From Plicaturopsis crispa FD-325 SS-3 (Eukaryota > Basidiomycota > Agaricomycetes > Amylocorticiales > Amylocorticiaceae), in the NCBI GenBank assembly GCA_000827205.1, contig KN832566.1, forward strand, positions 18,543-82,542: DNA of 64,000 bases, in the 5' to 3' direction. The position numbers and the translations under genes are program-made. The notes beneath the pieces were generated by a model that was not told the origin of the DNA, did no database searches, and saw only the letters and a list, made by a program, of their open reading frames with translations. This document shows, one piece after another, positions 40,671 through 48,930 of this stretch (positions within the stretch are counted from its first letter, which is position 1; each line of letters begins with the position of its first letter).

Positions 40671-43345
40671 ATGATGCCTTCTCCGAACTTTGGCAGTGGC
40701 ACAATGCCCTCTCGCTTTGGCGGAGGACACAGCACTACAAAAGCGCAATCGCTCCCGATTCCTGAGGTGCGTCTTTTCTTTCTCTACTTCATAATGGCGC
40801 CACTGAGAAGTCTCTCACCACCTCATCCTCTTTATGTCCAATCTTCTCCTGCAAAGGTGCGATACTCTTCGGGCAGTCGCCTACCAGATGTCAAACCCAA
40901 GATCTCCGACCTCGATGCCGTTCTTCGCGAGGACCTCACTGGATCAGTCCACAACATCCCCAACGCCCTGTTCTTCCCGCACATCCTTGGTGTCGAGCTC
41001 GACGAACTCATCAAGTGGGAGGAATACTTCCATTCCCAGATGGACGATGAAGAGCTAGTGAAGTGGATGAAGAAGCTCTGTGAAGGTTCCTCCTCCGACG
41101 AGACCTTTCTATATGCAACCTTTTCGTACGCCGCCAACCGTATCACCGAACTCTCTTACGCTCCCGGCGCGCCTGTTGTCAAGACCAAGAATCCCGGTCG
41201 CTGTTTTGGCCCCAACGAGTTTGTGTGGCTCCGTAATGACCCTGTTATTTTAAAGGGATCGGACGCAGACCGAAAGCCAGACTGCATAGGGACAAGCAAA
41301 GCTCGCCGCGAACTCCGTATAAGAGAACTCAAGGAGGCTGCCCGGGCACTTGTCAGCCATATTCGCTCGCCCAAGACGACAAAATGGAATGATCCAACGA
41401 TTTCCGTCGAGTTCAAACGGCGGCTTTACCGATTGATCTGGGCCCTGTATCAGGCCACCGCGCGCGCTCCATTCTCTCGCAAAAGTCCCGCTCCATCCCA
41501 GTCTTTGACTGTCGTCGACGATGCTGTCGTCTTCCCCATGCCTGATACCCAGGTGAACAAGCAGGATCTCGAAAATCTCGACGAGATATCCGTCGAGCCG
41601 ACAAACACTCGACCAGGACAGTCCCCCTCGAAAATCGCTGCACCCGCGCCGCTGGTGTCGAAACCGTTGGACGAGCTGGTAGTCATGTCCGAGCAACCAA
41701 ACGCGAACAAAAAACGCGCTCTCAAGGGAACCAACGTCGGCAGTAGCTCGAAGAAACAAAAAATCGATTCCAAGAAAGGAGAAGCTGAGGAGCCGGATCG
41801 TACGGAGCCAACCTGCTCACTGATCGAGCAAAGTGGTGCGTACCACGTCCTACTACTGTTGTGAACTCTCTTCTAACCTACAACTCTGTAGCACGTTATG
41901 CTGCCGAAATGCTCACCGCGACTGGTGGAACCCGCGTGCATGCGTGGTGCATGGAGATCGATGGATACAACATGTGGCTGTCGGTCTACGACGCGTCCGG
42001 ATGCATGCGCAGCTACCCAGTCAACATCCTTACTGAATTCCCCAAGTTCGCTGCCATCATTGCCGCCATTGCGCGTTTCGACAGGGAGCGATGGGGCGTC
42101 CAGACTGCAGTCACCTACCCTCAAAACGCGGACGTCATCCCCGAGAGTCTCAGCGGCGCCACCATCGACTTCCAGTACGAGAAGCACCAACACACCGCCA
42201 CTATACAGTCGACCGCATTTGTGAGGAGAGGCTTATTCGGTCGGAATACAAACGTCCACATGGCTTCGTGTGAGACCCTTGGCGCAGGTCCGTTGGCTAT
42301 CAAGTTCGCCCAACCGCTACGATCTCGGCTGGTCGAGTTCACCGAGATGAAAATCATTCGGGAGGCTTCTGCCCAGGGTGTGCCCAACATCCCCGAGGTC
42401 TACGACTTCTTGATGCTTCCATCTATGAGCAAGGGCATGCGCGGAGACGTCTACAAGGGGCAAGTCACCTTATCGAACAGGAAGTTCAAGTTCGAAGTGG
42501 CGTCCGAGGAACCTAAAGAGACGACGGAGGCTCCTGCAGATCTGGTCTACGACGATCGGCAGATGACGGTGCTCATCGGAAAGTTGTATGAGCCGATTAC
42601 GAGGCTGGAGTCCGCCAAGGACCTCGCAAAGGTCTTTATGGACATATTGCTTGGTAAGTGCATCCCAACTACTCTCCTTTGCCTCAGTTCTGATACTCGC
42701 GAGTCGTTAGGTCACCACAAACTATACAAGGACGCGCATATCCTCCACCGTGATATCAGCGTGGATAACCTTATGTTCTGGCGAGACAGCAACGGCACTC
42801 CCCACGGCATCTTAAACGACTACGACAATGCAATTTTCCTCGACGAACGGTACATTCCAAAGCACACGATGGGTCCTCATCGCACGGGAACCCTACCATT
42901 TATGTCCTTGGACTTCTTGATGAAGACACCTCGCAATGCGCCTCACTATTATCGGCATGACCTAGAATCGCTTCTATACGCTCTAGTGTGGATCTGCGCA
43001 CGTTTCCCCACAAGAAGTCGAAAGGAGATCGCGGTCGACATCACGAACCATTGGTGCAAGGGGTCTACGAAGGCGGTTTTCTGTCGAAAAAGTGTGCTCC
43101 ACCATGACTTGGACCCGGATTTCGACGGGGAAATGGTGTATTCCGATCATTTCTCGTCTTTTCACGGCCTCACATACGAGCTGGCCGTTGCCCTCAACGA
43201 TGGCCACTCATTCGCGCGCAAGGAGAGGAAAAGGGGGAAAGAGCATACCGATGACATGGGCGGATTCACGTTTGATTATTTCTATGGTCTCATCTGCGAT
43301 CTGTTTTACACATTGGACGGCGACTCTGACTCGGGCTCTGACTAG
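40671..43345 (+). CDS. FunK1-type fungal protein kinase
   Basis: A large first part (from about 40671; the exact ATG and an intron near 40768-40856 are uncertain) carries 'SVHNIPNALFFPHILGVELDELIKW' and a Pro/Ser-rich region. The second part has the FunK1 pattern: 'MLTATGGTRVHAWCMEIDGYNMWLSVYDASG', 'AAIIAAIARFDRERWGV', a long insert, then the kinase catalytic loop HRDISVDN, 'LNDYDNAI' in place of the usual DFG region, 'GTLPFMSLDFL' and 'YYRHDLESLLYALVWI'. The family is expanded in Agaricomycetes and its roles are mostly unknown. Further introns lie near 41834-41890 and 42652-42711. It sits between the MAK16 copies. The catalytic Asp and Asn are present, so activity is plausible. Confidence 0.85.
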
Positions 43346-44184: not shown

Positions 44185-44384
44185 ATACCCGCTCGAAGGG
44201 ACCTGCCAGTTAGCGAAACAGACGACGTTCGGAATATTAACAAGACTGCGCACGAGTTCGGACACGAGCGAGCCTTGCGCATGATCCATATCCTATAGGC
44301 AGTGAACAACAAGCATCCATTCCCAGTGCCATCTCTGGTAGGACGAGAAACAAGCAATAAGTAGATAGTGCCCATTATAGGGTA

Positions 44385-45891
44385 TCACCAATTTGCGACC
44401 GCAGCCCGGCTGAGCGGCACACTCTCCACCTCCTGCTCGTACTCGACCTCCACACGCGCGCCGCCCCCTGTACACGTAGCAGTAAGCAGGTGTTGTTTGA
44501 AAGAACGCCAACGACAACAGCGTACGTTTTGGTTTCTTGTCCGGCCGCTTGCGCGGTGCGGGTTTGGTGGGCGCTGCTTTCCGCTTTCCGAGCGCCGTTT
44601 TTGTTGTTGTTTTTGCGTCGGGTGGGGCGTCTGCGTCTGCGTCTTCCTCATCCCCATCCTCCTCCCCGTCGTCATCCTCGCCCTCATCGTCCTCGGAGTC
44701 AGAGCCGCCAGTCGCGAAGCCCTGCGTTTGAATACCGATCAGCATCAACGCGGGTATTCGATGACAGCCACTTACCTCCTCCGCATCCTCCAAATCACTC
44801 AACCCATCCTCGTCCCCACTCACATCACTCACAAACTCTCTCTCCCCCCACCCCTCCTCCTCCATCTCCGCCTCTAGCGCCTCCTCGTCCTCCTCGTCCG
44901 TCTCCTCGTCCTCCATCTCCAGCCCCTCCTCGTCCATATCCACATTGGTTTTACCCCCGTTCTTCTCGCGATCCAACACAGCCTGCCACACCTCCTCGTT
45001 AACATTCAGCGGTGCGTCTCCATACGCCTTGCTCTGCAGGCGCTCGATGAGCTCCTTCTGGATGGACCGCTCGAGCTGCGCAGCCGCGAGGGCTTTGCGC
45101 TCGCGCGTGGCTTCGCGCCGGTCGAGTTTCTTTTTTACGCCCACGAGCTTTGGTCTGGGGGTGGGCGCACGTTAGTATTGTGATGTGATGTGATGAAAGG
45201 AGACATGAGAGCGTACTGTTGCCGGAGCTTGAGGCGGCGCATCTTGATGAGGTACTGCGTGATTTTGGTGATGCGCTGCTTGCACTTGTGGATCGTGAAG
45301 TTTGGCCAGTGGATCAGCTCTTGGTCGATCTGCGTGTATGGCGTCATTGTCAGCTCAACCGTCCATGTCAATACGGCTTAGTGTAGACTGAGGGTAAACG
45401 GGGGAAGGATGACGGAAAAGGCAGGGAGGAGGGGATGGGAAGGACAGGACGGGAGACGCACCTGTTCAAGCGCTTTAGAGTAATTATTCGAGAGCTTCAC
45501 GCGCTCCCACATGTGCGCGGGCGTGTGCGCGCGCTCGATCGTCTTCATGTACAAGTACAGCACGCCTTTTGCACCAAATCATCTCATGAGTATGGTATGA
45601 CTTTAATTTGAATACGACCGGCGCACCTTCTTTTTCACGGACCGTAGCGTAGCGCGAGTTCGCGAGGGGGCAGGACTGGCGGTTGCACAGCCCGGTGACA
45701 TTGTACTCGTTCCTGCAGAAATTTTGCGTCGTCGTCCTGTTTCCAGTTCAGAGTTCCGCCGCGAAAGAGTTGGATAAATAACGTTCGATCAGCAGCCTGC
45801 GCGCGAGGGAGGGGAGGGGAAAGACTTGCTTTACTTTGTACGAGCAGAACTGGTGGTTTATCACCGACCATATCACGTCGTCGCTCTGCAT
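44385..45891 (-). CDS. MAK16: MAK16, 60S ribosome biogenesis factor
   Basis: The start at 45891 gives [21 protein letters not shown], then [17 protein letters not shown] and '[20 protein letters not shown]', the conserved MAK16 N-terminus. Next come '[33 protein letters not shown]', '[32 protein letters not shown]', the Lys-rich middle, '[18 protein letters not shown]', a very acidic region and '[23 protein letters not shown]'. The protein joins early nucleolar pre-60S particles. The first intron (45829-45737) has a GC donor: only GCAAGT at 45829 keeps the invariant KVKTTTQNF frame. About six introns. The 3' half and flank are copied at 38100-40290. The start lies 126 bp from the left end of a transposon candidate. 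Confidence 0.92.
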
Positions 45892-46017
45892 CCTGGCCTA
45901 TACCGAAGAGTGGAAGTACAAGTATACAGACTCGATAACTGGAAAATGCAGCGCAGGACGTCGATGCAGACATCGAAGAAAATCTTGGACTAGAAAAGGA
46001 AGGTAGCCCCTGAGATC
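45892..46017. promoter_or_regulatory. MAK16 side of a split divergent promoter
   Basis: 126 bp separate the MAK16 start codon from the left end of the element at 46018. Together with 47992-48056 it would form an ancestral MAK16/CCDC90-like intergenic region of about 185 bp after removing one target copy. No specific factor site was recognised. Confidence 0.45.
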
Positions 46018-47991
46018 GGGGCAGGTGGAAAATGCCGCGCCACTGCCGCGACTGCCGCGCATTACCGCGCTGGTCGACTGACTGCCGCGCATCTTGTCTG
46101 CGTCCATCATCCTCTTACCCCAACCTCTCCCAGCTCCTGCAGAATCCTCTCCTGCATTTACCACGGCGCTGAGTCCGTAAGGACATTCTCCTCCGCACAT
46201 AACATCGACAACGGCTTGGACACCGTATCCGGTGCACCGTTGGGTAGTATCGCTTGACTGGCGGGACCTCTTTCATTCCCGTATCTTCTCGCTGCAGAGA
46301 CCTTGCTATCCTCATCATCATCTACACTCGCAATGCCTCTCGCGTTCTCGGATTCAACTTCTATGTGCTATCAGCTTCCGCGATTGAACGTCAACCGGAT
46401 TCCGGCCCCAACACCATGCTCGCCTACGCAGGCCTTGTGATGTGCTCCCAGGGGCCAGAGGAGGGTGCGCTGTGCGGGACATGCGGACTAGGGACAGCTG
46501 GACGGATTGAATAGATGGTGAGCTTCAGACTCTTTTCACTTCACCCAAACCTACAACGTGTCGTCGATTGCAGACTATGTATATATATGTACATCAATAC
46601 CACTGTGTTTGCTTCAGCACCCCCGTGTCCTCCAAGATACTCAAGGAAGTGCTCGCCGCTCGGAGGCTTACAGTAGATGCCTGCTGTCCGCGCGCAATGC
46701 TCTTGATAGAGCACCGTCACACGCCCACGTCGTTCCGTAGGATAGACTCAATGCCACGGTGGTGCACGGAGTTGTCACAGTCTCGCAGATGGCCGGCTCA
46801 CGGCGCTGCTGCCTGCAGCCTGCTGGATGTGTGTACATATATCATACTGTGCTTATTTACCTCTGAGCAAATCACATATCGCTTACCTGACATTATCGAA
46901 CTGGGCAAGTGCACCTCCGTAGCCACAGAGCACAGTGTCATAACATGTATAGCGGCATATTTTCTAGCCTAGTGGTACGTAGGCAGCGGGTCAACTGCAC
47001 GGAGGCAAGCATGTGCTGTCAGGACATAGAAAAACATGTATTCAGTACAGAGTATGGTACAACGTACAGAGTACATATGGTGGCAACGGACACAAGAAGT
47101 TTGTAGGTATTATATGTGTGGGTTTAGGTGTTTACGCACGACACATGAGAAACTCATGGACCACATTGGAGACATCTATATGGAAGGACCTACAATTTCT
47201 TCGACCCAAAACTCACGATGATGAAGGTTCTGTGCATGTCAGGGTGAGTGGGTAGGGTCCGTGGTGGCATTGGTTTGCTAGTGCGTCGTTACGAGAGTCT
47301 GCTACTTAAGCATGAGAATATGAGTGACACATTTGCTAGCATGGCAAATGCACTCACACATAACAGTCCTGAGGGTGCCCTGCATCATGAATGCGAGGAT
47401 GTCCTGAGTGCCTGTGATGCCGCCTCCGAGTACACAGCTCACAGCGGATCATCTGCACTTGAGCCGCGCGTGTCGTCTATGCTCCGCCGCGACGATATAC
47501 TACGGCGTCGACCTATCTTTTGACGAGTTCGTGGGCCAATGAATGCATGGACGGTCCATGCAGTGTTGGGCAGGTGCCGCGCAGTGCCGCGCAAGTGACG
47601 CGCCATTACCGCGCAAGTGCCGCGCCATTACCGCGCAAGTGCCGCGCCATTACCGCGCAGTGCCGCGCCAGTGACGAGCAAGTGCCGCGCATACCATTCT
47701 GTGTGGCAAGGTAGAACATCTTGAGAGGGTCCGGTCGACGAAGGTAGTGTCCAGGACAGGCTCAAGGTAAGTGGTGAAGGCACAGGAGGATATGGACAGC
47801 GAGGATATGGGCAACGATTGACGGTGTCGAGCGCGTTTCGGGTAAAATACGACAGAAATCAGGAGAAATCTTTCAAGATTGTAGGATAAAATGCAGTCAT
47901 CCGGTAAAATGTTCTTAGATTGGTGCAAAAGTGCATTTTGGTCCGGTGCGCGGCACTGCGCGGCAGTCCCGCGGTAAAATCTCTCTGCCCC
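46018..47991. mobile_element. Candidate non-autonomous DNA transposon (7-8 bp target duplication)
   Basis: The left end starts GGGGCAGGTGGAAAATGCCG and the right end, read inward, starts GGGGCAGAGAGATTTTACCG; 24 of the first 33 bases agree. Directly outside both ends lies TGAGATC (46011-46017 and 47992-47998), within a longer shared 13-mer (46006-46018 and 47987-47999), so the duplication is 7 or 8 bp depending on where the end is drawn. Subterminal 'TGCCGCGC/TACCGCGC' repeats occur at both ends (46032-46090 and, inverted, 47942-47975). No transposase-like frame is present. The 7-8 bp duplication would suit hAT or KDZ/Zisupton-type elements, but the superfamily is unproved. Confidence 0.65.
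47572..47691. repeat. 22-bp CG-rich tandem repeat inside the element
   Basis: Tandem units such as 'aagtgccgcgccattaccgc' (22-bp period, about three full copies with partial ones each side) share the 'TGCCGCGC' and 'TACCGCGC' words with the ends of the surrounding element. Multiple copies of subterminal words are usual at transposase-binding regions. Confidence 0.75.
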
Positions 47992-48056
47992 TGAGATCGC
48001 CATGTGCCCCGAGTGCCCGAGTGCCCGAAAACGTGCACGCGCGCATCTGCCCTCTG

Positions 48057-48930
48057 ATGTCTACCACCATGACGTCCCCCGTACTTTCTAACCTGTTCTC
48101 CTCTGCAAGTCGCTCCAAACCATACAATTGCTTAAGAATCCCTGCGCGGGCGTCCACACGGACGTTCCGAACGACCGCACCACGGACGTTCAGCACCACC
48201 GCGCGCCGCGCCGACTTCCACTTCGACACGCACCACTTCGTGCAGCGGCTAGAGCGCGAGGGGCTGAACCGCGCGCAGGCGGAGGGCATCATGTCCGCGA
48301 TGGCGGAGGTCATCGACGAGAGCATCCGCAACATGACTAGCAACATGGTCACCAAGGCCGAGCAGGAGAAGGTGCGTTGCGTCTACTGCTCTTAGCTCTA
48401 CCCCCTCACAGGCTCGCTGACGCTCGCTCGCCCGCCCTTAGCACCACTACACCCAACAAGTCGACTTTGCGCAGATCAAATCCGAGCTGCAGCTAATGGA
48501 GAAAAACGACCTCGCGATGATCAAAGCGGAGAACGACCGGCTGAGCAGCGACCTGGAGCGGCTGAAGCAGCGGCTGCGGGAGGAGGTGACGCGCACGCAG
48601 GCGGGCGTGCGGCTCGACCTGAACCTCGAGAAGGGCCGCGTGCGCGAGGAGAGCAGCCACCAGACGCTCAAGATTAAGGAGGTCGACACGCGCATCGAGC
48701 AGGAGATCGCGGGCTTGCGTACGGCGATACAGGCGTCTAAGGTGCGTGTGCGCCCTGTGACCAAGGGAGACGGAGCTAACGCACGGCTGTATTCTAGGCG
48801 ACAACGCTGCAGTATCTCGTTGGTTTCGGTATGTCGTGTCCATTCGTTGCACTTCGTGTACGCTGACCGGCGCCTTGCAGTAACCGGATGCTCGGCACTT
48901 CTGATGGCCTACCTGCGTTTCCGCGTATGA
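48057..48930 (+). CDS. CCDC90/MCUR1-family mitochondrial coiled-coil protein
   Basis: The start MSTTMTSPVLSNLFSS leads into an Arg/Ser/Thr-rich, acid-free N-terminus ('IPARASTRTFRTTAPRTFSTTARRADF') typical of a mitochondrial targeting sequence. The conserved family block follows: 'FDTHHFVQRLEREGLNRAQAEGIMSAMAEVIDES'. Then comes a long coiled coil ('MEKNDLAMIKAENDRLSSDLERLKQRLREEV'), a further helix ('RIEQEIAGLRTAIQASK') and a C-terminal membrane segment ('GCSALLMAYLRFRV'). The family (DUF1640) includes yeast Fmp32 and vertebrate MCUR1/CCDC90B, which are inner-membrane proteins linked to complex IV or calcium-uniporter assembly. Four introns or so. The start codon is only 65 bp from the right end of the transposon candidate. 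Confidence 0.88.

Follow-up and report, generated by a model that had tools for sequence, protein, structure and literature searches.

What separates the divergent genes MAK16 and CCDC90-like in the window (the whole 64,000-nucleotide stretch of Plicaturopsis crispa DNA analysed here), how did it come to lie there, and what might it mean for the promoters of both genes? The original prediction was that a DNA transposon had split a small promoter shared by the two. Our data indicate that the intervening block is a transposon of a common type, notable for where it lies. We put at roughly 78% the probability that a cut-and-paste DNA transposon, non-autonomous and most likely Mutator-like (MULE), inserted between the two genes and duplicated 9 bp of target.

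The insertion and its copies

The features of the locus are as follows, with the plus orientation of the element chosen so that GGGCAGGTG stands at its left.

44293-45891, minus strand: MAK16 gene, several exons (PF04874 on an exon; its low-end limit was taken from the last open reading frame and is not a checked gene end)
45892-46009, unstranded: native DNA from the MAK16 start codon to the duplication, 118 bp (127 bp including the duplication)
46010-46018, unstranded: left copy of the 9-bp target duplication, CTGAGATCG, from copy alignment
46019-47990, plus strand: inserted element, 1972 bp, GGGCAG...CTGCCC, with borders common to five complete copies
46019-46050, plus strand: left terminal inverted repeat, imperfect (46018-46050 in the inverted-repeat listing, trimmed by copy alignment)
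46033-46092, plus strand: three exact left subterminal TGCCGCGC words
47570-47691, plus strand: subterminal array of TGCCGCGC-type units, period 11 bp (11.3 copies, 74% matches)
47948-47965, minus strand: two TGCCGCGC words in reverse orientation, adjoining the right end
47959-47990, minus strand: right terminal inverted repeat, imperfect (47959-47991 in the inverted-repeat listing, trimmed by copy alignment)
47991-47999, unstranded: right copy of the 9-bp target duplication, CTGAGATCG, from copy alignment
48000-48056, unstranded: native DNA from the duplication to the CCDC90-like start codon, 57 bp (66 bp including the duplication)
48057-48930, plus strand: CCDC90-like gene, several exons (PF07798 on exons)

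Both start codons, at 45891 (minus) and 48057 (plus), stand in the sequence where they had been predicted, and Pfam matches on exons support both genes (PF04874 at 1.4e-29 for MAK16; PF07798 at 5.7e-16 and 1.7e-27 for the CCDC90-like gene). Elsewhere in the window, at 41861-43345, a 494-aa open frame appears to resemble a fungal FunK1-type protein kinase.

The absence of other copies with these ends had been named as a finding that would count against a transposon, and a DNA search of the 33.2-Mb assembly (49 contigs) with the block found such copies. The genes and introns of this assembly suggest a fungal, probably basidiomycete, source. Nine match rows resolve into five complete copies (the window copy, one on C8, a second on C13, one on C6 and one, in two pieces, on C1), two fragments, on C9 and C10, and a ~70-bp piece within the C6 copy (C6:1788663-1788743) that is inverted relative to the window copy. 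The fragments, and an end at C1:606483 from the end-pattern search, were not counted as copies. Cut at their common ends, the copies measure 1972, 1993, 2007, 1987 and 1694 bp (window, C8, second C13, C6 and C1), and over aligned columns they are 95.8% (C8), 95.6% (second C13), 82.5% (C6) and 71.4% (C1) identical to the window copy. The ends are near-invariant in all five, with 78 of the first 81 bases and 56 of the last 56 the same; interiors are variable, down to 71% aligned identity in the C1 copy, and the ends have not taken part in this drift. Among the matches listed, the left-end pattern (up to three mismatches) occurs at ten places, with six exact matches and one that carries a single mismatch, and the right-end pattern at five, all exact; the reversed control patterns gave 0 matches each. 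A search of viral contigs with the right-end pattern returned no match.

Perfect 9-bp duplications flank each of the five complete copies in this genome (CTGAGATCG, TTCCGATGG, CGTCCGTTC, CGTGAAGCC and TGTCCGCCG). The base at their ninth position varies between copies (C, T, C, C, T) yet agrees with its partner in every one, so the duplication is 9 bp long, neither 7 nor 8. The repeat predicted directly outside both ends is thus present, and the 7 bp given as its length is replaced by the 9 bp that the five-copy borders define. With four other complete copies and five of five duplications perfect, the insertion and its 9-bp duplication are more than chance, and this part of the prediction holds.

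The inverted ends, predicted to match at 24 of 33 bases, were likewise recovered with one correction. The 33-bp arms (46018-46050 and 47959-47991) are 73% complementary, and no longer inverted pair is listed for the 2.5-kb stretch; their outermost pair belongs to the duplication, as judged from the five-copy borders. The TGCCGCGC words lie near both ends and in opposite orientation at the two termini, as had been noticed, and the array at 47570-47691 can also be read with a period of 22 bp (5.6 copies, 88% matches). Besides these words, several GGTAAAAT-like words occur near the right end (47840-47980), which could represent a second binding motif or be TATA-like. A likeness of the flank at 45940-45954 to the left end of the element (6 mismatches in 22) was taken as chance.

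Once the element and one duplication are removed, the two start codons are computed to lie 184 bp apart, in agreement with the ~185 bp originally estimated; the insertion widened this gap from 184 to 2165 bp. A second allele of the left flank (45600-46018) was not found, this sequence having a single place in the assembly. Viral contigs gave no match to MAK16, and a search of genome contigs gave one other fungal MAK16, L063 (NYXK01000053.1:218229-228865), in a mislabelled bacterial MAG. The MAG is labelled Deltaproteobacteria; the MAK16 on this contig is of fungal type, at 61% identity and interrupted by intron-like breaks, so eukaryotic DNA seems to be present in the record. No match to CCDC90 was found beside this MAK16 within its 10.6-kb stretch, so the MAK16/CCDC90 pairing is at least not universal among fungi. 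L063 is too remote to serve as an empty site.

The window copy is derived at 34 of 1955 compared sites, and the C8 and second C13 copies have 18 in common. Since divergence among the copies may predate their insertions, it does not date the insertion in the window.

Coding content and superfamily

The element is non-coding, with no sign of coding in its frames, substitutions, gaps or Pfam matches. Its longest stop-free frames are no longer than those of shuffles (121-153 aa versus shuffle means of 128-135), the substitutions that distinguish the window copy from the C6 copy are not clearly biased by codon position, and 8 of 33 gaps have a length divisible by three. Neither the window copy, in six frames, nor the C1 copy, in five of its six, matched any Pfam family above the cut-off or any transposase; a sub-threshold match in the window copy frames (E 0.036) was taken as chance. 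A search for an autonomous partner with both end patterns and with paired TGCCGCGC words found, among the best-scoring candidates, no transposase gene with these ends. The word pair occurs at at least 31 places (26 in the five complete copies, 2 in the C9 and C10 fragments and 3 elsewhere, single), its reversed control pattern at at least 12, and no place of the word pair adjoins a listed hAT, MULE or KDZ transposase match.

Since no transposase gene with these ends was found, we infer the superfamily, and the length of the duplication, 9 bp rather than 7, moved the likely assignment to Mutator-like elements. MULEs usually duplicate 9 bp, and their terminal inverted repeats are commonly long (14-500 bp in one survey), though some MULEs have none; hAT elements duplicate 8 bp, or 5-7 bp in variants, and Merlin elements 8-9 bp. 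The 32-33-bp, 73% complementary arms of the element fall inside this survey range and are not typical of MULEs. Counting against a MULE are these short, imperfect terminal repeats and the lack of a transposase gene in any copy. In favor, all five duplications, at 9 bp, lie within the 8-11 bp that an excerpt of PMC6446971 gives for MULEs, and a non-autonomous MULE family fits the duplications together with the 11-bp subterminal array and the variable interiors. No transposase was found in the element or in a partner with the same ends, so the family is better described as MULE-like and apparently orphan than as a proven member of the MULEs.

Other superfamilies were weighed against this assignment. 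A hAT element was the first guess, on account of a 7-bp repeat and the subterminal words, and KDZ was considered because of its 43 transposase matches in the genome; hAT was set aside on the 9-bp duplication found in five of five copies, and KDZ on the same length set against the published 7-8 bp. Merlin duplications may be 9 bp long and the element itself has no gene; a search of the genome for the IS1595-type transposase (PF12762), the fold associated with Merlin, gave no match. KDZ transposases are numerous in this assembly. An origin in some other superfamily with 8-9 bp duplications, whether Merlin, an atypical branch of hAT or KDZ, or something undescribed, appears improbable. It would accord with the short terminal repeats, the lack of a transposase with the same ends and the excess of KDZ (43) and hAT dimerisation-domain (13) matches over MULE matches (2) in the genome. 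Against it, the five duplications are all exactly 9 bp, compared with the 5-8 bp for hAT and 7-8 bp for KDZ in an excerpt of PMC12730594, and no TGCCGCGC cluster occurs in the ~3-kb loci (not whole elements) around the 13 hAT and 12 of the 43 KDZ matches.

The two MULE matches bear on the Mutator-like assignment in different ways. One is a complete element of 3931 bp at L048 (C13:894860-898808; L048 2611-6559) with a MULE-type transposase frame and terminal bases matching at 59 of 60 positions; it is flanked by the 9-bp duplication TCAAGTACA, so MULEs in this genome make 9-bp duplications. Its ends (AGTGAACGC...) are unrelated to GGGCAG, which counts against the assignment. The other, at L049 3612-6268 (C5), is a MULE-type gene with MULE and FAR1-type matches just under the Pfam cut-offs; no recognizable ends were found in its 10-kb stretch, a second point against, and it is possibly an old copy or a domesticated gene.

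Several known systems resemble the family in part. In excerpts of PMC2774946, non-autonomous elements of maize Mutator (Mu/MuDR) have 9-bp duplications and common ends with differing interiors, as here; unlike Mu, whose ends of ~215 bp are highly similar, this element has short, imperfect ends and no transposase with these ends. The Mu target consensus, as it stands in that source's excerpt, is not matched: by eye, the five duplications fit 11 of 20 fixed positions, which is about chance. Mosquito MULEs, as partly described in PMC5225508, carry short subterminal tandem repeats and have non-autonomous copies with only their ends in common. Inward of a short terminal motif, Muta1-type MULEs of Aedes aegypti carry short subterminal tandem repeats, as our element does, and their 8-9 bp duplications and derivatives alike mainly at the ends extend the likeness (PMC5225508, same excerpt). 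Muta1 differs in sequence, host and repeat unit, with 145-bp repeats, activity and hundreds of derivatives. Among fungal MULEs, Mutyl has 9-10 bp duplications and 22-bp repeats (PMC6446971, in excerpt); Hop and Mutyl, like the element, have a fungal host, and they differ in encoding a transposase, a comparison made by description.

Position relative to start codons

What is new here is a five-copy family, with no partner gene found, in which all complete copies lie directly upstream of start codons. Counting the duplication, the nearest ATG lies 38-240 bp beyond the outer edge of the element in five of five copies, and within 66 bp of it in four.

C6 copy: 38 bp to the ATG of Rft-1 (Pfam 2.8e-35)
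C8 copy: 43 bp to the ATG of COA8 (Pfam 2e-18)
C1 copy: 59 bp to the ATG of a 430-aa open frame with no Pfam match
Window copy: 66 bp to the ATG of the CCDC90-like gene, with MAK16 127 bp beyond the other end
Second C13 copy: 240 bp to an ATG whose own open reading frame has no match, with an Rxt3-like frame downstream (E 4e-4, below the Pfam cut-off)

The gene downstream of the second C13 copy is probably Rxt3-like, on the strength of that downstream frame.

With 9,000 to 25,000 genes assumed and distance limits chosen post hoc, random placement would put five of five copies within 250 bp of an ATG with a probability of 1.4e-6 to 2.4e-4. Under the same assumptions, at least four of five would come within 66 bp with a probability of 5e-7 to 3e-5. 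The 5' bias rests on five copies, the gene numbers are assumed, not counted, and the limits were picked after seeing the data.

This placement recalls maize Mu, which prefers the 5' ends of genes, most strongly near transcription starts and 5' of the ATG, and which resembles our family in inserting just before the ATG (PMC2774946, in excerpt). Insertion at 5' ends of the maize Mu type is seen in all five copies, a small sample in which it is not diagnostic. A plausible sequence of events is that a transposase supplied from elsewhere would have bound the terminal repeats and the subterminal TGCCGCGC-type repeats and inserted the element with a preference for the DNA immediately 5' of genes, perhaps where promoter chromatin was open.

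Alternatively, the position upstream of genes may reflect survival instead of targeting, if copies within genes were lost and a compact genome left mostly promoters as places where copies could persist; we consider this a serious contender at somewhat below even odds. Only five complete copies remain and the window copy has 34 changes of its own over the 1955 compared sites, so selection has had time to act. Survival accounts less well for the proximity of four of the five copies to an ATG (within 66 bp), which is tighter than mere exclusion from coding sequence, and for the low probability of so close a placement at random (the 5e-7 to 3e-5 above, with its assumed gene numbers and post hoc limits).

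The promoter question

Since only 184 bp would separate the two start codons without the insert, it is plausible that the native gap was a shared bidirectional promoter, as originally proposed. After the insertion, MAK16 and the CCDC90-like gene would have relied on the remaining native upstream DNA (127 and 66 bp) together with the ends of the element, which may now supply core-promoter DNA. The same consideration extends to the other copies: with only 38-66 bp left before four genes, their core promoters probably lie at least partly in the element. The exception would be a start of transcription upstream of the element, which would make it part of a leader.

This exception leads to a different account, in which the element occupies the 5' untranslated region, with the old start sites on its far side, and is transcribed or spliced out with no promoter replaced. 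We consider this fairly unlikely. The short distances to the ATG, 38-66 bp in four copies, are as expected for leader insertion, and insertion into 5' untranslated regions is reported for maize Mu in an excerpt of PMC2774946. In the window, however, only 184 bp separated the two genes, so that an old start site beyond the element would presumably fall in or near the start of the other gene.

The broadest reading of the element's placement is that the family acts as a portable promoter. Copies would land tens of bases from a start codon, and the near-invariant ends and the subterminal TGCCGCGC array would replace the core promoter. In the window, a single shared bidirectional promoter would have been divided into two separate ones at opposite ends of the element, so that a ribosome-biogenesis gene and a mitochondrial gene were no longer coupled. 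We offer this as speculation and think it distinctly improbable.

The mimp elements of Fusarium oxysporum resemble our element in being non-coding DNA transposons in promoters, and in the excerpt of PMC3599309 promoter deletion at two loci showed no direct role in expression. They differ from it in their size (~200 bp), Tc1/mariner relationship, duplication and target set. At rice OsPsbS1, a MULE-like sequence 0.4 kb upstream was studied for its effect on expression, according to part of PMC4178011; a MULE upstream of a gene is common to both cases, and the rice example differs in concerning a plant and a single gene.

If the promoter reading is false, the locus is a neat case of a MULE-like fungal family inserting at 5' ends, with no autonomous partner found in the assembly. 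If it is true, these copies would be natural before-and-after cases: intact core genes in which the DNA directly upstream was exchanged, including one site where two divergent genes were driven apart. They would then make it possible to test directly the amount of native promoter that compact fungal genes of this kind require.
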